Assembly: GCF_019599145.1 (NCBI RefSeq)
Contig: NZ_CP080647.1
Location: 3,844,001 to 3,908,000, forward strand
DNA from: Streptomyces akebiae
Lineage (GTDB): Bacteria > Actinomycetota > Actinomycetes > Streptomycetales > Streptomycetaceae
Direction of reading: 5' to 3'
DNA: 64,000 nt
Under the pieces are notes generated by a model. That model did no database searches. It was not told the DNA's origin and saw only the letters and a list, made by a program, of their open reading frames with translations. Both the position numbers and the translations under genes were made by a program. Positions 11,866 to 64,000 of the stretch are shown in pieces; positions within the stretch are counted from its first letter, which is position 1; each line of letters begins with the position of its first letter.

Positions 11866-12600
11866 ATGACCGGAACCGAGCGAGCGACCCCCGACCACAA
11901 GCGGGCGACCTCCGGCCACGAGGGGGCGACCGTGCTCGTCGTCGAGGACGAGCCGAGCATCGCGGACGTCCTCACCATCGCCCTGCGCTACCACCGCTTC
12001 GAGGTGATGACGGCCGGTACGGTCCGTGACGCGCTCACGCTCGCCGAGCGCACCCGACCCGACGCGGCACTGCTGGACGTGATGCTCCCGGACGGGGACG
12101 GCCGTGCCCTCGGCCGTGAACTGCGCGCCCGACGACCCGAGTTGGCGCTCGTCTTCCTGACCGCCCGGGACGCGCCCGCCGAGATCGTGGGCGCCCTCGG
12201 CTTCGGCGACGACTACATCACCAAGCCGTTCGACATCGAGGTGGTCGTCGCCCGCCTCTCCGCCGTGCTGCGCCGGACCAGGCGCGCCGACGTGCTCCCC
12301 CAGCGCCCGCCGCTGCGCTACGGCGACCTGGAGCTGGACGAGACGACGTACTCGGTGTGCCGCGCGGGCCGCACGGTGGAGCTGACGCCCACGGAGTACG
12401 CCCTGCTGCGGTTCCTGGTGCGCAACGGCGGCCGGGTCGTGCCCAAGGAGCAACTCCTGCGCCATGTGTGGCAGTACGAGCACACGCCGGCCGAGTCGAC
12501 CGTCGTCGAGACCTACATCAGCTATCTGCGGCGCAAGCTGGACACGCTCGGCCCACCGGTGATCACCACGCGGCGGGGCGTCGGATACGGGCTGGCATGA
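11866..12600 (+). CDS. OmpR-family response regulator
   Basis: The product has 244 residues. The receiver domain (about 23-135) has the acidic pair in 'VVEDEPS', the phospho-acceptor Asp in 'DAALLDVMLPDGDG', Thr in 'FLTARDA' and Lys in 'YITKPFD'. The C-terminal winged helix (about 150-244) ends in 'YISYLRRKLD' and 'TTRRGVGYGLA', typical of OmpR/PhoB. The start is uncertain: ATG 11866 has a cramped GAGG, and GTG 11932, directly before 'LVVEDEPS', has GGGGG upstream and would remove a repetitive RATPDHK/RATSGHE extension. The kinase gene starts inside its stop codon. The divergent MMPL transporter is a plausible target. Confidence 0.93.
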   Translation: MTGTERATPDHKRATSGHEGATVLVVEDEPSIADVLTIALRYHRFEVMTAGTVRDALTLAERTRPDAALLDVMLPDGDGRALGRELRARRPELALVFLTARDAPAEIVGALGFGDDYITKPFDIEVVVARLSAVLRRTRRADVLPQRPPLRYGDLELDETTYSVCRAGRTVELTPTEYALLRFLVRNGGRVVPKEQLLRHVWQYEHTPAESTVVETYISYLRRKLDTLGPPVITTRRGVGYGLA

Positions 12601-14165
12601 CGCGTCCCGGGAGGCTCCGCAGACCGTGTCGGCGGCACGGCCTGTACTCCCTGCGCGCCAAGCTCACGCTCGCGAACGTCGTCCTCCTCGCCGTGGGGGT
12701 CGTCACGGCCACCGCGTTCAGCGCGATGGGCATGCGCCTGTATCTGCTCGACAGTGTCGACCGGGAGCTGATGACGACCCGCGACTCGATCGGGGCCGCC
12801 GCCATCGGCATGGAGCAGATCGACGCGCTCAGCTCTCTGGTCGCCCTCAGTAACCGCACGTCCGGCGGGGCCACGGCCGACGGCGCCGACTCCCTCGTCC
12901 AGGGAGCCGTCTTCACCGCGCTGGACGACGGGGGCGAGCCGCTGACCATCGCCGGATTCCCACCCTCCGAGGAACAGCGCGCCCTCGCCGCGGCAGTGGG
13001 CGACCCGGCCGCCCTCCTCGCGGACGACGAGCCGTACGACGTCGACGTGGCGGGCGCCCCGCATCGCGTCACGGCGGCCCGGATGGACGACGGCACGACC
13101 GTCCTCCTCGCCACCTCCACCGCCTCGCTGCACGACGTCATCGCCAAGGCCCTCAAGCTGGACTTCGCCGTCGGCGGTCTGCTGCTGGCGACACTCGCCT
13201 GTCTGACCCTGTTCGGTGTGCGCCGCCGGATGCGGCCGCTGGAGGACATGGTCGAGACCTCGTCGGCGATCGCCGAGGGCGACCTCACCCGCCGCGTCCC
13301 CTCCAGCAGGGAGACCACCCTGGAGGTCGAACAGCTGCGGCTCGCTCTCAACTCCATGCTCCAGCAGGTCGAGACGGCCCACCACACCCGTGAACGCAGC
13401 GCCGCCCAGCTGCGCCGCTTCGTCGGCGACGCCTCCCACGAGCTGCGTACGCCCCTGGCCGCGATCCGCGGCTACCTCCAGCTGTACGACAAGGGCATGC
13501 TCACCGACCCCGACGAGCGCCGGCGTGCCTGGGACCGGATGAACAACGAGGTCGACCGGATGGGCCGCCTCGTCGACGAGCTGCTCACCCTCGCCCGTCT
13601 CGACCAGCGCCCCGAACTGCGCCTCAGGAACGTCGACCTCGCCCGTCTGGTCCGCGACGCCGCCGCCGACCTCCGCGCCCAGCAGCCCGACCGCCCGGTC
13701 AGCGTCCGCGCGGACGGCACCCTTCTCGTGCGGGCGGACGAGTCGGGCCTCCGCCAGCTCCTGGGCAACCTCGTGAGCAACGTCCGCACGCATACGCCGG
13801 CGGACGTGCCGGTGCGGCTCGGGGTGGAGTGCGCGGCCGAGGCCGTACGTCTGTACGTGGCGGACGAGGGGCCCGGTCTGTCGCAGGGGGACGCGGCCAG
13901 GATCTTCGACCGCTTCTTCCGGGCGGGGGGAGCCGCCGGCAGCGGCCTGGGCATGGCCATCGTGCAGGGGGTGGTGGAGGCTCACGAGGGCGAGGTCTCG
14001 GTGTGCACGGCCCCGGGTGATGGCCTGAAAGTGACGGTCACCCTCCCACCAGCGCCCAGACCGTCTTCCCGTGCCGTCCCCGGCTCCACACCCCCCAGGC
14101 CGCGGCGAGGTGCTCCACGAGGCGCAGCCCCCGCCCTGTCTCCTCCCAGTCCCCCACCTCCCTGA
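12597..14165 (+). CDS. Sensor histidine kinase (HAMP, HisKA, HATPase)
   Basis: The product has 522 residues from ATG 12597, which overlaps the regulator stop as ATGA. It has a TM segment near residues 25-47, an extracytoplasmic sensor loop of about 130 residues, and a second TM at about 182-205. A HAMP linker follows, then the H-box 'FVGDASHELRTPLAAIRGYL', the N-box 'LLGNLVSNVRTHTPA', and the G-boxes 'VADEGPGL' and 'GSGLGMAIV'. The N-box is slightly degenerate (SNVRTHT where SNAxKYT is usual). The last 45 residues are Pro/Arg/Ser-rich and read across the opposite-strand ATPase gene, so they may be a non-conserved read-through tail. Confidence 0.93.
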   Translation: MTRPGRLRRPCRRHGLYSLRAKLTLANVVLLAVGVVTATAFSAMGMRLYLLDSVDRELMTTRDSIGAAAIGMEQIDALSSLVALSNRTSGGATADGADSLVQGAVFTALDDGGEPLTIAGFPPSEEQRALAAAVGDPAALLADDEPYDVDVAGAPHRVTAARMDDGTTVLLATSTASLHDVIAKALKLDFAVGGLLLATLACLTLFGVRRRMRPLEDMVETSSAIAEGDLTRRVPSSRETTLEVEQLRLALNSMLQQVETAHHTRERSAAQLRRFVGDASHELRTPLAAIRGYLQLYDKGMLTDPDERRRAWDRMNNEVDRMGRLVDELLTLARLDQRPELRLRNVDLARLVRDAAADLRAQQPDRPVSVRADGTLLVRADESGLRQLLGNLVSNVRTHTPADVPVRLGVECAAEAVRLYVADEGPGLSQGDAARIFDRFFRAGGAAGSGLGMAIVQGVVEAHEGEVSVCTAPGDGLKVTVTLPPAPRPSSRAVPGSTPPRPRRGAPRGAAPALSPPSPPPP

Positions 14166-55143: not shown

Positions 55144-56355
55144 CTAGCCGGGGAACTCGGGAACGTCCCGGTGCCGGTCCCGGGTCCCGCCCGCGGCGTC
55201 GGCCACGGGAGCGCCGGGCACGAGGCTCAGCGGTGCCGGGGGGAGAGCGGCGAGGGCGTGCGGCTCGGCGTGCCGCGGCCCGCCGTTGTCGACGGTGGAG
55301 TGCCGGCCGAGGGTGCCTGTCGGAAGGCCGTCCGGGTTCTGCCCCGCGGGCACACGCACGCCGGGCGCGCCCTCCGCATCCACGTCAGCGGCGGTCCGGT
55401 GAGGAGCCCTCACGCCCGCCGTGCCACCGACCTCGGCCTTGGGCCCGTACACGACGGAAGCCGGGCCGGTGGCCCGTCCGACGTCACGCCCGCCGTCATC
55501 CTCCGACGCCGGGCCCGGCCTCTCGGCGTCTGTCGACCCCGGCTCCTGCGGCGCCGCGCCGCCGGGCAGGGACTCCACCGGCAAGGTGGTCCACTCGGGC
55601 AGCTGCGGCAGCTCCGGCAACTGCGGAAGCCCCGGCACCCCGGGCAGCGACGGCAGGCTCCCCGGCGGCAGCTGCGACGTCACTCCGTCCAGCCCCTCGG
55701 CGACCGACTCCACAAGGTCCCCCACCGGCACCACGACACCCTCGGTGACGGGCACCACGACGCCCTCGGTGACGGGCCCGACAACACCCTCGGTGACCGG
55801 CCGCACGACCGATTCGGTGACCGGCCGCACGACATCCTCGACGACAGACTCCACGGCTCGCCCGGTAGCAGGGCGCACGACCTGCCCGCTCACGGGCCTT
55901 GCCGCTCGGTCGGTCACGGGTCGTACTGCTTGCCCGGCGACCGGCCGCACCACGTACTCCGTGACGGGCCGCACCACGTGCTCCGTGACGGGCCGTGAGA
56001 CGCGCTCCGTGACGGGCCGTGAGACGTGGTCGGTGACGGGCCGTGAGACGTGGTCGGTGACAGGCCGCGAATCGGGGTCGGAGGCCCGCCGCGGCAGTGA
56101 GTCGGTGACCGGCTGCACGGCGGTGTCGACGACCGGCCGTGCGGCCTGCTCGGTGACCGGCCGCACGACGTGTTGTGTGACGGCGGTCAGGAGAGGCTGC
56201 GTATCCGGTGACCCGTCCGCGGCGCTCGCCCGCTGCCCGCACAGAACGCCCAGCACGAACAGCCCGCCCACCAACAGCGCCACCCGCACCAGACGGCCCC
56301 CGGCGGCCCCGCGCAGGGCGGCACCGGCACCGTGAAGCGCGGTCGCTGGGGTCAC
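55144..56355 (-). CDS. Secreted protein with about 20 octapeptide VxRPVTEx repeats
   Basis: The product has 403 residues from GTG 56355, preceded by GGAGG at good distance. The signal peptide/TM ('LVRVALLVGGLFVLGVLC') is followed from about residue 58 to 210 by near-uniform 8-residue repeats of the type V-V-R-P-V-T-[DE]-[HRG]. Earlier copies have SRPVT and later ones GPVTE or VPVTE. A Pro/Leu-rich part ('LPSLPGVPGLPQLPEL') and an acidic, low-complexity C-terminal half follow. No known domain is recognised. The regular spacing suggests an extended surface or wall-spanning structure. It lies 230 bp downstream of the VWA gene on the same strand. Confidence 0.75.
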   Translation of the reverse strand: MTPATALHGAGAALRGAAGGRLVRVALLVGGLFVLGVLCGQRASAADGSPDTQPLLTAVTQHVVRPVTEQAARPVVDTAVQPVTDSLPRRASDPDSRPVTDHVSRPVTDHVSRPVTERVSRPVTEHVVRPVTEYVVRPVAGQAVRPVTDRAARPVSGQVVRPATGRAVESVVEDVVRPVTESVVRPVTEGVVGPVTEGVVVPVTEGVVVPVGDLVESVAEGLDGVTSQLPPGSLPSLPGVPGLPQLPELPQLPEWTTLPVESLPGGAAPQEPGSTDAERPGPASEDDGGRDVGRATGPASVVYGPKAEVGGTAGVRAPHRTAADVDAEGAPGVRVPAGQNPDGLPTGTLGRHSTVDNGGPRHAEPHALAALPPAPLSLVPGAPVADAAGGTRDRHRDVPEFPG

Positions 56356-56585
56356 GACGGGAAGATCCTCCGGTGCGGCGGAACGGCGGAGTACGGGGCG
56401 AAGATGCGCGAGATGCGAACACCCGTGTGAAGGCTGTGAAGTGTTGCAGATCCTCGCACGGGACGCCCGCCGTCGCGCAAGCCCCCTGTCACCGACGCGT
56501 TCTCATGTCCGCTTTTCAACCTCCCTTGTCCGGTTACCGCCTGCCGCGACGGTCGCGGCCACCGTCACACGCACCCGCTCCCGGC

Positions 56586-57752
56586 TCACACGCGGTCCGG
56601 TATCGGCAACGGCCGCTTCTCGATCGCCGCCGCCATCACCTCCGGGAAGAGGTCGGGCGTACAGGCGAACGCCGGTGCGCCGAGCGCCGCTAGGGCCGCC
56701 GCGTGCTCGCGGTCGTACGCCGGCGCGCCCTCGTCGGAGAGGGCGAGCAGAGTCACGAACTGCACCCCCGACGCCTTCATCGCCGCCACCCGCTTCAGCA
56801 TCTCGTCGCGGATGCCGCCCTCGTAGAGGTCGCTGATCAGCACGACCACGGTCTCCGCGGGCCGGGTGATCTGCGACTGGCAGTACGCCAGGGCCCTGTT
56901 GATGTCCGTGCCACCGCCGAGCTGGGTGCCGAAAAGGACGTCGACCGGATCGTCGAGCTGGTCGGTGAGGTCGACGACGGCCGTGTCGAAGACGACGAGC
57001 CGGGTGCTGATGGACCGCATGGAGGCCAGCACCGCCCCGAACACCGAGGCGTACACGACGGATGCCGCCATGGACCCCGACTGGTCGATGCAGAGGACGA
57101 CCTCCTTCTTCACCGACTGCGAGGCCCGGCCGTACCCGATGAGCCGCTCGGGTACCACGGTCCGGTACTCCGGCAGGTAGTTCTTGAGGTTGGCCGCGAT
57201 CGTGCGGTTCCAGTCGATGTCGTGGTGACGCGGCCGGTTGACGCGGGCGCTGCGGTCGAGGGCGCCGGTGAGGGTGGCCCGGGTGCGGGTCGCGAGCCGC
57301 TTCTCCAGGTCCTCGACGACCTTCCGCACGACGGCCCGCGCGGTCTCCTTCGTCGTCTCCGGCATGGCCTTGTTGAGGGAGAGGAGAGTGCCGACGAGGT
57401 GGACGTCGGCCTCGACCGCCTCCAGCATCTCCGGCTCCAGCAGCAGCGCGGACAGCCCGAGCCGGTCGATGGCGTCCCGCTGCATCACCTGGACGACGGA
57501 GGAGGGGAAGTACGTCCGGATGTCCCCCAACCACCGCGCCACGGACGGCGCCGACGCCCCGAGCCCCGCCGAACGGTTCTGCCCCGCCCCGGACTTCTCG
57601 CCCTTTCCGTACAGGGCGGCCAACGCCTGGTCCATCGCCGCGTCCCGTCCCCCGAGCGCGCACCCGGTGCCGTCCGCCGCCGCCCCACCCAGCACGAGCC
57701 GCCAACGCCGCAACCGCTCTGCGGCCACATCCACCTCGGACCCCGCCGTCAC
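56586..57752 (-). CDS. VWA-domain protein (CoxE-like) of the MoxR cluster
   Basis: The product has 388 residues. GTG 57752 overlaps the stop of a 52-codon ORF as GTGA, with GGGGGTG upstream. The N-terminal about 190 residues are helical. The VWA domain (about 205-385) keeps the MIDAS residues: 'VVLCIDQSGSMAAS' (DxSxS), Thr in 'GGGTDINRAL' and Asp in 'VVLISDLYEGG'. It probably binds a partner protein through Mg and works with the MoxR ATPase two genes upstream. MoxR-VWA pairs are known as chaperone-like remodelers; the client here is unknown. Confidence 0.92.
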   Translation of the reverse strand: MTAGSEVDVAAERLRRWRLVLGGAAADGTGCALGGRDAAMDQALAALYGKGEKSGAGQNRSAGLGASAPSVARWLGDIRTYFPSSVVQVMQRDAIDRLGLSALLLEPEMLEAVEADVHLVGTLLSLNKAMPETTKETARAVVRKVVEDLEKRLATRTRATLTGALDRSARVNRPRHHDIDWNRTIAANLKNYLPEYRTVVPERLIGYGRASQSVKKEVVLCIDQSGSMAASVVYASVFGAVLASMRSISTRLVVFDTAVVDLTDQLDDPVDVLFGTQLGGGTDINRALAYCQSQITRPAETVVVLISDLYEGGIRDEMLKRVAAMKASGVQFVTLLALSDEGAPAYDREHAAALAALGAPAFACTPDLFPEVMAAAIEKRPLPIPDRV

Positions 57753-57907
57753 CGGCGCACCCCCGTGCGGAACCGGACCCAGAGAGGCATCACCGTGACG
57801 GTCGTCGGACGGTCGCCCGAGTGTGGCCCTTCTCCGTGACCGAGCCCGTCCCCGCCGCCCATCGATCCGGCTGCCGGCCTCGGCTCGCGCAGTCCGTCAC
57901 TCGTCAT
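57749..57907 (-). CDS. 52-residue small ORF coupled on both sides
   Basis: ATG 57907 overlaps the stop of the DUF5682 gene (ATGA), and its TGA overlaps the start of the VWA gene (GTGA). The predicted peptide starts MTSDGLREPRPAAGSMGGGD and ends 'VMPLWVRFRTGVRR'. About 75% of third positions are G or C. It may be a real small protein, or a translated bridge that keeps ribosomes moving between the two large genes. No family is recognised. Confidence 0.45.
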   Translation of the reverse strand: MTSDGLREPRPAAGSMGGGDGLGHGEGPHSGDRPTTVTVMPLWVRFRTGVRR

Positions 57908-60477
57908 CGCGCCACCCCCACAAGGTCGTTGTCATCGGTCCGCTCCTGCTCGGCGTTCTCCCGGTCGACGTTCAGCCGGTCGACGTGATCTCCCCGAGTG
58001 CTGTCGCGGTCGTCCAGGCCCAGCAGCAGCCGGACCACCGGCAGCACGGCGTCGGCGCGGTCGCTGTCGAGTTCGTCGGCGAAACCCGGTATGCCCGCGC
58101 CGCCGGCCGTCGCGCTCGGTCGCCGGCCCGGCCCGCGCCGGACCAGCTCGCCGAGTGTGCGTCGCACCCCCGGCTCGTACGCCGAGAACGTCCGGCGCAG
58201 CAACGGCAGTACGTCCGTGAAGGCGTCCCCCGGCACGCCGGTGAGCCAGGCGTCCACCAGGCCAAGGAGCCGTTCGTCGTGGACGAGCAGCATTCCGCCG
58301 CCGGAGCCTCCGCCGACGAAGCCCTCGATCCAGGCCGCCGCGTCGGCGGGTGCCGTACCCGGCGAGAGCACGAGGCCCATGAGCCGGGCCGCCTCGTCCC
58401 GCGCCAACGCTCCTTCGTCCAGGAGGAGTCGTACGGCCCGCCCTCGAAGGACACCGGGCACTGTGTCCCGCACGGACAGGACGTGGAGCACCGAGTGCCA
58501 GCGGGGCCGTAGACCGTCGTCCCGTGCGGCCTGCTGCCCCGGCACGGTGTCGCCCAGGAGTCCCACGGCACCGTGCACGGCGTCGACATGGCGGCGCATC
58601 TCCTGGGCCGCCTCCGCGTCGAGCGCGGCGCACGCGGGCGGCAGTCCGACGAAGACGCGCTCCGCGAGTCCCGCGGCGACCTCGGCCAGCGCCCGGGTGT
58701 CGGTCGCGCGGACGTCGCCGTAGCGGAGGGAGCGGACGAGTGCCGGGAGCGCCTGGGCGAGGTGGCCGACGTCGGCGTCGAGGGCGGCACGGTCGGCGAG
58801 GACGCGCATCACCACGGGCAGGGCGTCCGGGAGTTCGGCGAGGAGGCATCGCTCGGCGAGGCCGGTGACGTCGGCGAGGGAGCCGGCCGTGACGGCGTCC
58901 GCCTCGGCCTTCGCGGTCGCCGCGGCGAGCACGGTGGTCCCCCACACCCCGGCTTCGGCGACGCGCACGGACAGTTCGGGCTCCCAGCGCAGCCGCCAGG
59001 TCTCCCGGAACGTGCCCGTGCTGCCACGCGAGGTCGTCGGCTCGCCCCAGGAGACGCCGAGCAGCCGCAGTCGGTGCAGCAGCCGGCTGCGCTCCGCGTC
59101 GTTCTCCTTCCGCAGGTCGAGCTCCAACTCCCGCTCCAGGGCCTCCGGCTTGAGCCTCAGCCGCCGCTGGAGCCGCGTGAGGTCCCGCTGCAACGGCACC
59201 GCCGGCGCGGACTCCGGCACCTCGCCCAGGACGTCTCCGACCACCAGCCGGTCCCGCACCAGCGACAGCGGTACGTCCGAGCCGTCGCACATCACCGCCC
59301 GTACGGCGTCAGTGGTCTCCGTCAGGCCGGGCAGTGGGCGCCCGCGCATCACGGCGAGCGTCTCGGCCAGCCGTACCGCCTCGATGACATGCGCGGAGGA
59401 GACGATCCGGTCCTCCTCCCGCAGCAGCCCGGCCACCTTGGTGAGCCAACGCTCCACGGGACGGTCGGGCGCGCCGAACAGGTGCCCGTACCAGCCCGGC
59501 GAGTCGATGCCCGCGCCGTAACCGCCGGCCCGGGCCAGCCGCCGGTTCGTCCACGGCACCCAGGTCATGTCGGCCTTGACCTTGGGCAGCCCCTTCAGCA
59601 GCGCCCGGTCGGCGGCCACGGTCCGCTTCTGCCGTAGCGCCGGCACATGCCAGGCCCCGCACACGACTGCCACACCGTCGTCCCCGAAGTCCTTCTGCGC
59701 GGCCCGGATCTGCAACCGCATGTACGCCTCGCGCACCAGGTCCCGATCGCGCCCACCGGTGCCGTACGCCTCCCGGAGCGCCCCCATGGCTTCCTCCAGC
59801 ACCGTGAACGGCGCGAAGACGTCCCCGCCCGTCCCCCGGTGCTCGACCACGTCCTCCCACCACCGCTCGGCGTCGTCGTACCCGGCGGCCTCGGCGAGCG
59901 CCGCGAGCGGGTCGCCCCGGAGCGGTTCCTCCTCCGGCGGCGGGGCCGACCCCTCCGGCTCGGCGTCCTCCTCGCGCTCCCGGACCAGCGAGTGCGCGGC
60001 CGGCAGGTCGATGAAGCGGGCCGGGACGCCGTGGGCCAGGGCCCAGCGAAGGGCCACCCACTCCGGGGAGAACTCGGCGAAGGGCCAGAAGGAGGACCGG
60101 CCGGGCTCGTCGACCGCGTGGGCGAGGAGCGCGACCGGGGGCCGCATGTCCTCGTCGGCCGCCAGCGGAATCAGCCCGTCCGCCTCCGGCGGCCCCTCGA
60201 TCAGCACCACCCGGGGCCGCGCCACGTCCAGCACGGCTCGCACCGCCCGGGCCGACCCCGGCCCGTGATGCCGCACTCCCAGCAACAGCGGGCCACCACC
60301 GCGCGCCCGGACCTCGCCCGCCCGTCGTTCGGCCTCCACCCGTGCCCCGCTTCGGCCCCCGTCCCCCATGTGACCACCCGCCTCCGCCCCGGTTGCCCGG
60401 TCCGCCCCCTTCGCCCTGTCCGCCCCGTCGGCCGGGACGCTCGCGCCGACAGCCGCTCCCTCCCCCCGCCCGCTCAC
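57904..60477 (-). CDS. DUF5682 protein of the MoxR cluster
   Basis: The product has 857 residues. GTG 60477 overlaps the MoxR stop as GTGA; codons further upstream lie inside the MoxR gene. After a charged tail, residues about 60-100 hold 'LLLGVRHHGPGSARAVRAVL' and 'VVLIEGPPEAD', and near residue 265 is 'AVVCGAWHVPALRQ'. Spaced His/Glu motifs of this kind recall the EreA/ChaN/TraB-like hydrolase superfamily, but this is my inference. The C-terminal 500 residues are largely helical with no named fold. It is always found, to my knowledge, with MoxR and VWA genes. Confidence 0.9.
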   Translation of the reverse strand: MSGRGEGAAVGASVPADGADRAKGADRATGAEAGGHMGDGGRSGARVEAERRAGEVRARGGGPLLLGVRHHGPGSARAVRAVLDVARPRVVLIEGPPEADGLIPLAADEDMRPPVALLAHAVDEPGRSSFWPFAEFSPEWVALRWALAHGVPARFIDLPAAHSLVREREEDAEPEGSAPPPEEEPLRGDPLAALAEAAGYDDAERWWEDVVEHRGTGGDVFAPFTVLEEAMGALREAYGTGGRDRDLVREAYMRLQIRAAQKDFGDDGVAVVCGAWHVPALRQKRTVAADRALLKGLPKVKADMTWVPWTNRRLARAGGYGAGIDSPGWYGHLFGAPDRPVERWLTKVAGLLREEDRIVSSAHVIEAVRLAETLAVMRGRPLPGLTETTDAVRAVMCDGSDVPLSLVRDRLVVGDVLGEVPESAPAVPLQRDLTRLQRRLRLKPEALERELELDLRKENDAERSRLLHRLRLLGVSWGEPTTSRGSTGTFRETWRLRWEPELSVRVAEAGVWGTTVLAAATAKAEADAVTAGSLADVTGLAERCLLAELPDALPVVMRVLADRAALDADVGHLAQALPALVRSLRYGDVRATDTRALAEVAAGLAERVFVGLPPACAALDAEAAQEMRRHVDAVHGAVGLLGDTVPGQQAARDDGLRPRWHSVLHVLSVRDTVPGVLRGRAVRLLLDEGALARDEAARLMGLVLSPGTAPADAAAWIEGFVGGGSGGGMLLVHDERLLGLVDAWLTGVPGDAFTDVLPLLRRTFSAYEPGVRRTLGELVRRGPGRRPSATAGGAGIPGFADELDSDRADAVLPVVRLLLGLDDRDSTRGDHVDRLNVDRENAEQERTDDNDLVGVAR

Positions 60478-61688
60478 ACGCTCACCTCCCGGCAGGCGCG
60501 GTAGAAGTCGGTCCAACCGTCACGTTCGCGGACGACGGCCTCCAGGTACTCCTGCCAGATGACGCGGTCGGCGGCGGGGTCGCGGACGACGGCGCCGAGG
60601 ATTCCGGCGGCGACGTCGGAGGGGCGCAGGACGCCGTCGCCGAAGTGCGCGGCCAGAGCGAGCCCGCCCGTGACGACGGAGATCGCCTCGGCGGTGGACA
60701 GCGTGCCGCTGGGCGACTTCAGCTTCGTCCGGCCGTCCGTCGTGACGCCGTCGCGCAGCTCACGGAAGACCGTGACGACACGGCGGATCTCGTCGACGCC
60801 GTCGGGCACGGCCGGCAGGTCGAGCGACCGGCCGATCTGGTCGACGCGGCGCGAGACGATGTCGACCTCGGCGTCGGCGCTCTCCGGCAACGGCAGCACC
60901 ACGGTGTTGAATCGGCGGCGCAGGGCGCTCGACAGGTCGTTCACGCCGCGGTCGCGGTCGTTGGCCGTGGCGATGAGGTTGAAGCCGCGGACGGCCTGCA
61001 CTTCCTGACCCAACTCCGGTATCGGCAGCGTCTTCTCGGACAGGATCGTGATCAGTGTGTCCTGGACGTCGGCCGGGATCCGGGTCAGCTCCTCGACGCG
61101 TGCCGTCATGCCCTCCGCCATGGCCCGCATGACGGGGCTGGGCACGAGGGCGTCGCGGCTCGGGCCGTGGGCGAGCAGTTGCGCGTAGTTCCAGCCGTAC
61201 CGGATCGCCTCCTCCGGTGTGCCCGCCGTGCCCTGCACGAGCAGCGTGGAGTCGCCGCTGACGGCCGCCGCCAGGTGTTCGGACACCCAGGTCTTGGCGG
61301 TGCCGGGCACGCCCAGCAGGAGCAGCGCGCGGTCGGTGGCGAGCGTGGTGACGGCCACCTCGACGATGCGGCGCGGTCCGACGTACTTCGGTGTGATCAC
61401 CGTGCCGTCCGGCAGCGTGCCGCCGAGCAGATAGGTGGCGACGGCCCACGGCGAGAGCTTCCAGCGGGCCGGCCTGGGCCGGTCGTCCTGGTCGGCCAGC
61501 GCGGCGAGTTCATGGGCGTAGGCGTGCTCGGCGTGCGCCCGCAGCACCTCGCCGTCCGGGCGGGTGTCCGGGCGGGTGTCCGGGTGCGCGTCCCCACGCG
61601 GGTCCGGGTGCGCGCTCGTGCGTGTGTTCGCGGGCGCGGACTGGTTGTGGCTCGGGTCGACAGTGGTCGTTCCAGCAGACGCAGGCAT
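60474..61688 (-). CDS. MoxR-family AAA+ ATPase
   Basis: The product has 404 residues from ATG 61688 with GAGGGGG 8 nt upstream. The tail (1-60) has PDTR repeats. The AAA+ core shows Walker A 'LLLLGVPGTAKTWVSEHL', the pre-sensor 'LIATANDRDRGVNDLSSALRRRF' with sensor 1 Asn and the Arg finger region, and a C-terminal lid with 'LSTAEAISVVTGGLALAAHF'. This is a divergent MoxR branch in which Walker A has Thr-Ala-Lys-Thr. It probably remodels proteins together with the VWA partner. First gene of a tightly coupled leftward operon. Confidence 0.93.
   Translation of the reverse strand: MPASAGTTTVDPSHNQSAPANTRTSAHPDPRGDAHPDTRPDTRPDGEVLRAHAEHAYAHELAALADQDDRPRPARWKLSPWAVATYLLGGTLPDGTVITPKYVGPRRIVEVAVTTLATDRALLLLGVPGTAKTWVSEHLAAAVSGDSTLLVQGTAGTPEEAIRYGWNYAQLLAHGPSRDALVPSPVMRAMAEGMTARVEELTRIPADVQDTLITILSEKTLPIPELGQEVQAVRGFNLIATANDRDRGVNDLSSALRRRFNTVVLPLPESADAEVDIVSRRVDQIGRSLDLPAVPDGVDEIRRVVTVFRELRDGVTTDGRTKLKSPSGTLSTAEAISVVTGGLALAAHFGDGVLRPSDVAAGILGAVVRDPAADRVIWQEYLEAVVRERDGWTDFYRACREVSV
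61555..61600. repeat. 12-bp repeats in the MoxR tail
   Basis: A GGGCGGGTGTCC-like unit is repeated about three times and encodes the PDTRPDTR stretch near the N-terminus of the ATPase. Confidence 0.7.
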
Positions 61689-61744
61689 GGCTGAGTCCCC
61701 CTCCAGCTCGGCCGGTTCGGATCTGCTGACCACACTGCACCACG

Positions 61745-61802
61745 CCACTGACAATCCAGTCTGACCTGGGGAAATTGGATCGCGCAAGCCAATTGTCAGT
61801 GG
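61745..61802. promoter_or_regulatory. Divergent promoter region with 11-bp inverted repeat
   Basis: CCACTGACAAT (61745-61755) and ATTGTCAGTGG (61792-61802) are perfect inverted copies 36 bp apart. On each strand the arm supplies CTGACA, and a GAAATT/AATTTC element follows after 17 bp, so the two arms may be the -35 regions of the two divergent promoters, sharing their -10 area. One regulator bound to both arms could control both operons at once. Confidence 0.6.
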
Positions 61803-61821
61803 TGGGATCTACCTTCAGAAC

Positions 61822-63198
61822 ATGACTCAGCAGGGGGTGCGCTGGACGGCTGAGCAGGTGCTGGCATTGGCACCTGACGCAGCGTCGCGCAAAGCCGGAA
61901 GCAAACTCGCCGTGGCCGGACCTTGGTCGGCGGCGGGTACTTCGGACGAGGGGACGGTGTGGGGACTATGCAAAGGCAGTGGAAGCAAGCCGTATCAGAC
62001 AGTGATCGACGTCGCGGACTCCACCGGGCCCGCCTACAAGTGCAGTTGTCCGAGCAGGAAGTTCCCGTGCAAGCATGCGCTGGGGCTGCTCCTGCTCTGG
62101 GCGGGCGACGACACCGCGGTGCCTCCTGGGCAGGCACCGGACTGGGCGCAGCAGTGGCTTGCCGGCCGCCGCTCGCGCGCAGCGGAGAGGACGACGAGGA
62201 CGGACGCGGCATCTGGGGCCACGTTCGCTGACCCCGAGGCAGCGCGTCGCCGGGCCGAGCGGCGCGCCGATCGGATCACCGCGGGCGCGGCGGAGCTCGA
62301 ACAGCGCCTGACCGACCTGTTCCGCGGCGGCCTGGCCGCCGCGGAACAGGCGGGATACGCGCTCTGGGAGGAGACGGCGGCCCGCATGGTCGACGCCCAG
62401 GCACCCGGACTGGCGGCTCGGGTGCGGGAGTTGGGTGCGATACCGGGCTCCGGCCCGGGCTGGCCGGTCCGCCTCCTGGAGGAGTGCGCCCTCCTCCATC
62501 TGCTGGACCAGGGCTGGCTGCGCCGCGAGGACCTCCCGGAGGGCCTCGCGGCCACGGTCCGCTCCCGGATCGGACTGTCCGGCTCCCCGGACGGCCCACC
62601 GGTCCGTGACCGCTGGCTCACTCTCGCCCAGTACGACACCTCCGACTCCCGCCTCACCACCCGCCGCATCTGGCTGTACGGCACCGGGTCGGGCCGTACG
62701 GCACTGCTCCTCTCCTATGGAGCCGCCGGCCGCGCGCCCGAGCTGTCGCTCCCGGTCGGGCTGGCCTTCGAGGCGGAGGTCGCGGCGTATCCGGGCGCGG
62801 GACAGCTGCGCGGGGCGCTCGGCGAGCGTTTCACCGCTCCCGAGCCGTCGTCCGTACGTCCAGGGGGCATCACCCCGTCCGAAGCGGCGGCCCGGTACGG
62901 CACGGCGCTCCAGGACGACCCCTGGCTCGACTCGTACCCGGTCACGCTCACCCGCGTCATACCCGCCCCGGACGGCGACTGCTGGCAACTGATCGACGCC
63001 GACAGTGATCTCGCCCTTCCTCTCACCTCTTCCGCCCGCTCCCGCCCCGGCCTCTGGCGCCTCGTCGCTCTCTCCGGCGGGGAACCCCTCACGGTCTTCG
63101 GCGAGTGCGGCCACCACGGCTTCACACCACTGACGGCATGGGCGGCCGAGCGCGAGGGCGCCCATGCACCCACCGGGCAGGCGGTGGCGCTGTGCTGA
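61822..63198 (+). CDS. SWIM zinc-finger protein
   Basis: The product has 458 residues. ATG 61822 has little Shine-Dalgarno and may be read from a short leader. The SWIM motif C-x-C-x(n)-C-x-H is in 'YKCSCPSRKFPCKHALGLLL' near residues 72-92. SWIM domains bind DNA or proteins. The remaining 350 residues contain helical and beta-rich parts with no named domain. It opens the rightward operon facing the MoxR operon and leads via a small ORF to the DUF5691 gene. Confidence 0.92.
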   Translation: MTQQGVRWTAEQVLALAPDAASRKAGSKLAVAGPWSAAGTSDEGTVWGLCKGSGSKPYQTVIDVADSTGPAYKCSCPSRKFPCKHALGLLLLWAGDDTAVPPGQAPDWAQQWLAGRRSRAAERTTRTDAASGATFADPEAARRRAERRADRITAGAAELEQRLTDLFRGGLAAAEQAGYALWEETAARMVDAQAPGLAARVRELGAIPGSGPGWPVRLLEECALLHLLDQGWLRREDLPEGLAATVRSRIGLSGSPDGPPVRDRWLTLAQYDTSDSRLTTRRIWLYGTGSGRTALLLSYGAAGRAPELSLPVGLAFEAEVAAYPGAGQLRGALGERFTAPEPSSVRPGGITPSEAAARYGTALQDDPWLDSYPVTLTRVIPAPDGDCWQLIDADSDLALPLTSSARSRPGLWRLVALSGGEPLTVFGECGHHGFTPLTAWAAEREGAHAPTGQAVALC

Positions 63199-63416
63199 GA
63201 CGAGACGACGACCGGCTGAACGACACCACGACGGCACACGGCAACGGCGGCTGCGGCTGCGGCTGCGGCTGCGGCTGCGGCGAGGTCAGCGGTCCGTCAC
63301 GGACGGCTGCCGCCGCCGCGTCCGGCCTCGCCGGTCAGCGGCCTCCCCTCTTCCTCGGCCCCTTCACACCCCTTCGGTTCCACCCGGCCGTCGTCGCACG
63401 GAAGGACCTCACATGA
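63192..63416 (+). CDS. 74-residue small ORF with (Gly-Cys)5 tract
   Basis: GTG 63192 overlaps the SWIM stop (GTGCTGA) and its TGA overlaps the DUF5691 start (ATGA), so it fills the whole 214-bp gap in phase. The peptide has a charged start (LRRDDDRLNDTTTAHG), five Gly-Cys pairs encoded by a GGCTGC repeat, an Ala-rich part and a final 'GPFTPLRFHPAVVARKDLT'. About 84% of third positions are G or C, which supports coding. The Cys array could bind metal. No known family. Confidence 0.5.
   Translation: MLRRDDDRLNDTTTAHGNGGCGCGCGCGCGEVSGPSRTAAAAASGLAGQRPPLFLGPFTPLRFHPAVVARKDLT
63246..63281 (+). repeat. GGCTGC hexamer repeat
   Basis: Five tandem copies of GGCTGC encode Gly-Cys pairs in the small ORF. 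Copy-number change by one unit would keep the reading frame. Confidence 0.9.
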
Positions 63417-64000
63417 CCGGCACCACAGGTGCTCCCTCGCCCACGGCGGCCGCGCCGGCGCTCTCCTGGGAGGACTTGGTCACCACCGCGTTGCTCGGGA
63501 CGGACCGGCGTACGCCGCCGGGGGCTGTGTCGGGCCGGGAGGCGCCGGTCGCGCTGTTGGACGCGGCGGCCGTGGCGACCGTCCGGCGGAGGGCGGGGAT
63601 ACGGCCGGTGCGGGCGGCGAAGCGGCCCGCACCGGTGGCGCCGGACCCGCGTCCCCCGCTGCCACCGGCCGCGACGCGGCGGCTGACGACGTTGCTGGCC
63701 GACCGGCCCGGCACCGGCGGTGGCCGCCGGGGCGCGGCACCCGACCTGATGGAACTGCTCCCCCAATGGCTGGCGCTGGCCAACGCACACGGTTACGCGG
63801 CACCTCCGGAGGTCCTGCCCGCCCTGCTGGACGCGGCACGCGGCCGTACGGATCTGCGTCCCGCCGTGCTGGCCTTCGCGGGCGCGCGGGCCCTGTGGCT
63901 GGCCCGGCTGAACCCCGACTGGCGCTTCGCTCTGCGCGCGGCCCCCGGCGGTGGCGCGGCGCTCCCCGGTCCGGACGAGCCCGAGCGGGCCCGACTGCTC
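63413..64000 (+). CDS. DUF5691 protein, N-terminal part (cut by window end)
   Basis: ATG 63413 has GGAAGGA 6 nt upstream; 196 codons are visible without a stop. The family opening 'LSWEDLVTTALLGTDRRTPP' is clear and is followed by 'LMELLPQWLALANAHGYAAP' and 'DWRFALRA'. Such proteins are usually around 500 residues, helical, and of unknown function. The family tends to lie next to SWIM and MoxR-VWA genes. It is coupled to the small ORF before it. Confidence 0.9.
   Translation, partial: MTGTTGAPSPTAAAPALSWEDLVTTALLGTDRRTPPGAVSGREAPVALLDAAAVATVRRRAGIRPVRAAKRPAPVAPDPRPPLPPAATRRLTTLLADRPGTGGGRRGAAPDLMELLPQWLALANAHGYAAPPEVLPALLDAARGRTDLRPAVLAFAGARALWLARLNPDWRFALRAAPGGGAALPGPDEPERARLL

Follow-up and report, generated by a model that had tools for sequence, protein, structure and literature searches.

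CoxD, NorQ and RavA-ViaA are thought to mature or activate specific enzymes. YehL, for its part, is a named subfamily of the MoxR proteins (PMC3893208), and in Escherichia coli the genes yehL-yehM-yehP-yehQ stand adjacent on one strand and encode a MoxR-type ATPase (AAA_5), a DUF5682 protein (E = 2.4e-98), a VWA_CoxE protein and a SWIM zinc-finger protein. These are four of the five protein types encoded at a locus that we analysed in the 10.5-Mb genome of Streptomyces akebiae, within a stretch of 64,000 nucleotides (G000:C1:3844001-3908000; hereafter the window). The locus consists of a leftward unit encoding MoxR, DUF5682, a 52-codon open reading frame (ORF) and VWA_CoxE, and a rightward unit encoding the SWIM protein and DUF5691. 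The reading towards which we lean, while holding it far from settled, is that the products of the five genes work as a single machine induced by DNA damage, in which an AAA+ remodeller is coupled to a hydrolase of the TIKI type. A preliminary description of the locus, made from the sequence alone, had called the system undescribed; this was too strong, because the E. coli genes are the same kind of set and YehL already has a subfamily name. The system was thus already known, though uncharacterised. The collection of papers searched, under these names, yielded no mention of DUF5682 and no joint mention of MoxR, VWA and a SWIM zinc finger, whereas two papers name at least two of yehL, yehM, yehP and yehQ and four name both YehL and MoxR.

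All five families, at the positions first proposed, were matched by Pfam profiles. In the leftward unit (complement strand), the MoxR-type AAA+ ATPase occupies 60474..61688 (AAA_5, E = 5.2e-37, 127 bits); its reading frame is open from a TTG at 61787, with the ATG at 61688 the likelier start. The DUF5682 protein spans 57904..60516 (PF18934, E = 4.7e-301, 1000.9 bits), 870 residues if read from the TTG at 60516, and its start codon is ambiguous between that TTG and a GTG at 60477. The VWA_CoxE gene lies at 56586..57752 (PF05762, E = 2.1e-61, 207.6 bits, above the cut-off). On the forward strand, the SWIM protein is encoded at 61822..63198 (PF04434, 25.1 bits against a cut-off of 19.6), with CSCPSRKFPCKH as its residues 74-85, and the DUF5691 gene begins at 63413, matches PF18944 in its in-window part to 64000 (E = 4.5e-47, 162 bits), and runs on for 1.1 kb beyond the window, ending near 65092 when counted in window positions. 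As described earlier, the units diverge from a single short region (134 bp in that account; by our count about 133 nt separate the MoxR ATG at 61688 from the SWIM ATG at 61822) and junctions overlap by a few nucleotides: 4 nt at 57904-57907, 57749-57752 and 63413-63416, and 7 nt at 63192-63198. Both the Walker A motif and the arginine motif RRF of MoxR were present in 24 of 24 loci, and the SWIM pattern CxCx(n)CxH in 21 of 21, the window's own locus being counted each time. The metal-ion-dependent adhesion site of the window's VWA protein is intact (DQSGS...GGGTD...SD). By eye only, DUF5691 appears to consist of HEAT-like helical repeats.

The five genes almost certainly form one conserved system. 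Among 149 actinobacterial genomes, DUF5682 was found in 10 and DUF5691 in 10 (9 above the cut-off); the two occurred together in 9 genomes, and DUF5682 stood alone in one. Within Streptomyces both are near-core, since they were found in 146 (DUF5682) and 143 (DUF5691) of 150 genomes. We compared 80 Streptomyces-type loci (79 titled Streptomyces, one Actinobacteria bacterium), taken from among the matches listed, with at least 568 relatives confirmed. All five genes were present in 68 of them; 11 of the 12 incomplete loci have contig ends beside the missing genes, and at the remaining one (L048) no VWA gene was detected, with 1.7 kb free. On a single strand and in the order SWIM-DUF5691-MoxR-DUF5682-VWA, the genes were found in Deinococcus, Rhizobium, Methylosinus, Methylobacterium, Nonomuraea, Nocardia and two actinobacteria (L125 and L126); in three other actinobacteria (L127-L129) the DUF5691 relative was detected by the Pfam profile only. 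In Hymenobacter SWIM and DUF5691 are one gene; fusions of the two were seen at three loci (L115, L123 and L126). The simplest reading of these gene orders is that the divergent layout is a Streptomyces rearrangement of a single operon. Co-occurrence, synteny and fusions thus agree with the linkage of the two units that the preliminary description had proposed, and the independent occurrence in most genomes that it named as grounds for abandoning the idea was not what the actinobacterial genomes presented. A separate observation concerns the operon on the Methylosinus plasmid (L117), whose VWA gene (12229-13364) is unannotated, matches in two frames and may be broken.

The AlphaFold2 model of DUF5682 (pLDDT, the predicted local distance difference test, 85.6) comprises an N-terminal TIKI-type domain followed by a C-terminal alpha-solenoid. 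Because a Foldseek search with the full-length model returned mostly solenoids and designed repeats, none at E<=1e-3, the N-terminal domain (residues 68-393; 59338..60315, complement) was modelled alone. The top ten structural matches to this domain are all members of the TIKI/TraB/Ere/ChaN superfamily, Foldseek's first five being TIKI. On the strength of these models the domain very probably has the TIKI-superfamily fold, a relationship that had gone unrecognised and that bears out the earlier impression of DUF5682 as enzyme-like. A profile search of Protein Data Bank (PDB) sequences gave a single match (E = 1.2). A search for canonical TraB (PF01963) gave no match in this genome and was positive in 1 of 149 genomes of the phylum, and therefore no TraB profile was available for profile-profile comparison; E. 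coli YbaP had no PDB relative at E < 0.5. In an alignment of 63 DUF5682 sequences, R82, H83, H84, E107, R262, E263 and H290 are invariant. The patterns RH[HFL]xP and RExxM were kept in 23 of 23 loci, and the histidine of GxxH was matched by its pattern in 22 of 23 loci and recognised by eye in L122. Compared with the 2His/2Glu catalytic set described for RRSP and Ere (PMC6254334), the sequence alignment offers two invariant His and one invariant Glu; a second Glu is not evident. From fold and residues we give even chances that DUF5682 is an active hydrolase.

The second line of evidence is the promoter. The RecA-NDp motif, which we take to be TTGTCRGTG-N8-TAnnnT, occurs exactly at 61793..61815 on the forward strand as TTGTCAGTG-N8-TACCTT, 6 nt before the SWIM ATG. 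A similar element faces MoxR (61732..61754, complement), its upstream part exact and its -10 carrying the one mismatch, CA for TA. At up to one mismatch there were two matches in the window against a shuffle mean of 0.02; genome-wide, the motif was found 26 times and the backwards-read control pattern once. Loci lacking MoxR or SWIM being left out, 68 Streptomyces loci were measured: the exact motif faces SWIM in 62, in 51 of these about 6-8 nt before the start codon, and it arose in none of 200 mononucleotide-shuffle rounds. The strict site was also present in 6 of 8 more loci that have both genes and were skipped in that measurement. On the MoxR side TTGTCRGTG was kept in 64 of the 68 loci and the full motif with a canonical -10 in none; the conserved form there is TTGTCAGTGGcGTGGTGCA (62 loci).

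The role of such promoters and their control by PafBC have been shown in mycobacteria (PMC8223512, PMC6789036), and in Streptomyces they have been reported for recA and SCO6735 (PMC5087735, PMC9411070), not for this operon. Here the same motif precedes recA, uvrB, ruvA and ung genes. With the longest ORF within 300 nt assigned to each site, the ORFs behind the other sites include those for RecA, UvrB, RuvA, uracil-DNA glycosylase, O6-methylguanine methyltransferase, DnaX, two DEAD-box helicases, ribosomal S6, Mrr-like and GmrSD-like proteins and a sigma factor, along with products unlinked to repair (an ABC transporter, a glyoxalase-type protein and a SUKH-4 protein). Eight of the 26 are followed by an ORF of no informative Pfam family (none at L139, L140, L144, L153, L155, L157 and L162; a DUF only at L151). 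The genome also has two adjacent WYL genes, the arrangement expected of pafBC, which we regard as a candidate only. As an observation in its own right, the 26 sites (L139-L164) make up a candidate PafBC-type regulon of this genome.

One published point weighs against damage control: a study of S. venezuelae reported that, on an initial search, the PafBC motif of mycobacteria did not seem to be conserved there (PMC9380542). We nevertheless consider it likely, from the conserved site before SWIM, that the system is under DNA-damage control in Streptomyces, and the stress trigger raised as one option in the preliminary description would then probably be DNA damage in particular. The same study raises, without closing it, the question of a damage response in Streptomyces that is independent of RecA/LexA (PMC9380542), and the promoter result bears on that question.

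The picture in other phyla is less distinct. The non-Streptomyces loci that were scanned yielded no exact RecA-NDp site (matches at two mismatches near some of them were not counted), and proteobacterial loci gave no convincing SOS box. In Deinococcus taeanensis a palindrome resembling the radiation/desiccation response motif (RDRM) lies some 36 nt ahead of SWIM; of 1000 shuffled regions 7 had one as good, with another form of the pattern 0 of 200 shuffles did, and across the whole plasmid the RDRM-like pattern had 7 matches against 6 for the control. We take the element as no more than suggestive. For D. radiodurans, the reported mitomycin-induced DdrO targets include a WGR protein and a DUF4132 protein (PMC8533742), and proteins of these two types are found in or beside the loci of a second class.

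That second class comprises DUF4132-type genes, MoxR, DUF5682, VWA and SWIM, and no DUF5691; it is represented by E. coli yehL-yehM-yehP-yehQ, Proteus and second Streptomyces copies. The second DUF5682 locus of this genome (L005, G000:C1:9542000-9560000) encodes a DUF4132 protein, MoxR, a DUF5682-VWA fusion and SWIM, and such fusions also occur in L120, L131 and L134. A third gene order, VWA ahead of MoxR and DUF5682, was found in a genome of the same genus (L132). The damage-type site lies close upstream in all six further DUF5682 loci of Streptomyces-type genomes, exact in L005, L132, L133 and L134 and with one mismatch in L120 and L131. We observed besides that an ORF at 4593-6605 of L132, with a Cys-rich CHH motif by eye, sits directly after the exact RecA-NDp site and before VWA-MoxR-DUF5682, possibly a third architecture. 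MoxR, DUF5682 and VWA genes also occur in a Fusobacterium record, which adds a SWIM gene, and in an unverified 'phage' contig from human stool (L121, MT835988) that may be bacterial. Kinship between DUF5691 and DUF4132 was considered and was not detectable (hhalign probability 0.1), and outside the motif no relation was detected between the two SWIM groups either (hhalign probability 1.6).

How might such a machine work? Activation of PafBC by damage would have the SWIM unit transcribed from its RecA-NDp-type promoter. SWIM and DUF5691, at times one polypeptide, would be the targeting and scaffold module; MoxR-VWA would spend ATP to remodel or pull apart the targeted complex; and DUF5682, which some loci of the second class encode as a fusion with VWA, would cleave a peptide or ester bond in it. 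The most speculative step is the nature of that target, perhaps a nucleoprotein (for instance a protein that has stalled on DNA or become crosslinked to it), which we think doubtful. That the machine cleaves something, and that its target lies on DNA, we infer. A fuller version, in which the products form an ATP-driven, damage-induced protease complex of the TIKI family and MoxR-VWA feeds nucleoproteins picked by SWIM-DUF5691 to DUF5682, we rate as unlikely; if true, it would be a bacterial counterpart, in logic, of the eukaryotic removal of DNA-stuck proteins by an AAA+ protein plus a protease. We are not aware of previous work tying MoxR-VWA machines to the DNA damage response, though no search was aimed at this point.

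Three other explanations were weighed. The locus could encode a dedicated maturation chaperone, with MoxR-VWA inserting a cofactor into, or activating, a specific enzyme, and DUF5682 serving as client or as an adaptor without catalytic activity. The literature describes the studied MoxR proteins as chaperones of this kind (PMC3893208), the VWA protein here is CoxE-type, and DUF4132 and WGR proteins are linked by annotation to molybdopterin or molybdate (PMC8533742); however, by eye no oxidoreductase or cofactor gene recurs in seven annotated stretches, and the promoter belongs to the class found before DNA repair genes. We consider this explanation improbable. Somewhat less probable again is a conflict or anti-phage system with DUF5682 as effector, on the lines proposed for MoxR-vWA ternary systems in actinobacteria (PMC7159879). 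The genes' near-core status in the genus (146/150) speaks against it, as do a PADLOC result limited to a weak ATPase match and searches that gave 0 confirmed relatives in viral contigs and one unverified record among phages, although Mrr-like and GmrSD-like genes are preceded by the same promoter class and relatives are found in 31 records of a plasmid collection, some of them chromosome-sized. That the locus is a damage-induced remodeller whose TIKI-fold domain binds a ligand or partner instead of catalysing, as ChaN binds haem, is very unlikely given the invariant His, His and Glu over 63 sequences and the motifs kept across the loci. With these results, a gene set for which we could find no role, present in E. 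coli K-12 and, as DUF5682, nearly throughout Streptomyces, gains a predicted fold, a predicted trigger and residues that can be tested.

Two small ORFs had been proposed as hidden genes, and only one of them held up. The 52-codon ORF (57749-57907, complement) has a counterpart at the same place and in the same frame, with the C-terminus TTVxVxPLWxRxRTGVR, at 14 of 73 DUF5682-VWA junctions measurable in the 80 loci. Over its last 12 codons (14 loci and the window), variation by codon position was 254/162/412; synonymous changes in this last part were 199:386, against 85:447 and 66:492 in the other frames. Because third positions vary most and synonymous changes exceed those of the other frames, the ORF probably encodes a small, lineage-restricted protein. 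The 74-codon Gly-Cys ORF (63192-63416, forward) found no support as a gene. In 70 loci with both neighbours present, tblastn gave low-scoring pieces that touch the SWIM-DUF5691 junction, on the correct strand, in 10 (E = 0.015-5.9), none containing the Gly-Cys run and none a convincing relative; the junction varies greatly in length, and in three loci the neighbours are one ORF.

Regarding the flanks, the preliminary description began the system at 55144. Its span holds for the system genes and not for the gene at 55144-56355 (complement), which has many imperfect RPVTExVV-type repeats, encodes a putative secreted or membrane protein, has no Pfam match and was set outside the five-gene system. 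Past the window, a B12-binding mutase-like gene (L004, 10273-10776, complement) is convergent with DUF5691, followed farther on by what by eye is a UvrD/PcrA-type helicase (L004, 14302-15999, complement).

The window's proteins can be classed as a MoxR AAA+ ATPase and a CoxE-type VWA protein, and the locus resembles RavA-ViaA and CoxD-CoxE in pairing the two. To our knowledge neither of those systems includes TIKI-fold, SWIM or DUF5691 proteins, and the NCBIfam ViaA match here reached 20.4 bits against a cut-off of 500. With the MoxR-vWA ternary conflict systems (Kaur et al. 2020, PMC7159879) the locus shares a MoxR-VWA core with extra components and differs in the third component; SWIM, YehL and TraB do not appear in that paper's main text. 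No VMAP, iSTAND, FtsH or beta-propeller component was among the Pfam matches at E<=1 (196 residues of DUF5691 being scanned), MoxR itself matched bpMoxR (22.6 bits, cut-off 27) and nSTAND3 (15.6 bits, cut-off 27.2) below cut-off, and of the PADLOC models only the IetA ATPase was hit (best E = 0.017). The DUF5682 N-terminal domain shares its predicted fold with the TIKI superfamily (TraB/PrgY, Ere, ChaN), and its conserved His/Glu positions may correspond to those of that superfamily; unlike those proteins, DUF5682 adds an alpha-solenoid, in part of the second class a VWA fusion, and a neighbouring MoxR gene at every DUF5682 locus compared. The parts, then, belong to known families, and the assembly as a whole fits no characterised system that we found. 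Like the YehLMPQ set, the window has adjacent MoxR, DUF5682, VWA and SWIM genes, its DUF5682 being 26% identical to that of E. coli; where E. coli has an upstream DUF4132 gene (yehI), a WGR gene (yehF) and no DUF5691, the window has DUF5691 in place of DUF4132, and its SWIM gene on the opposite strand.

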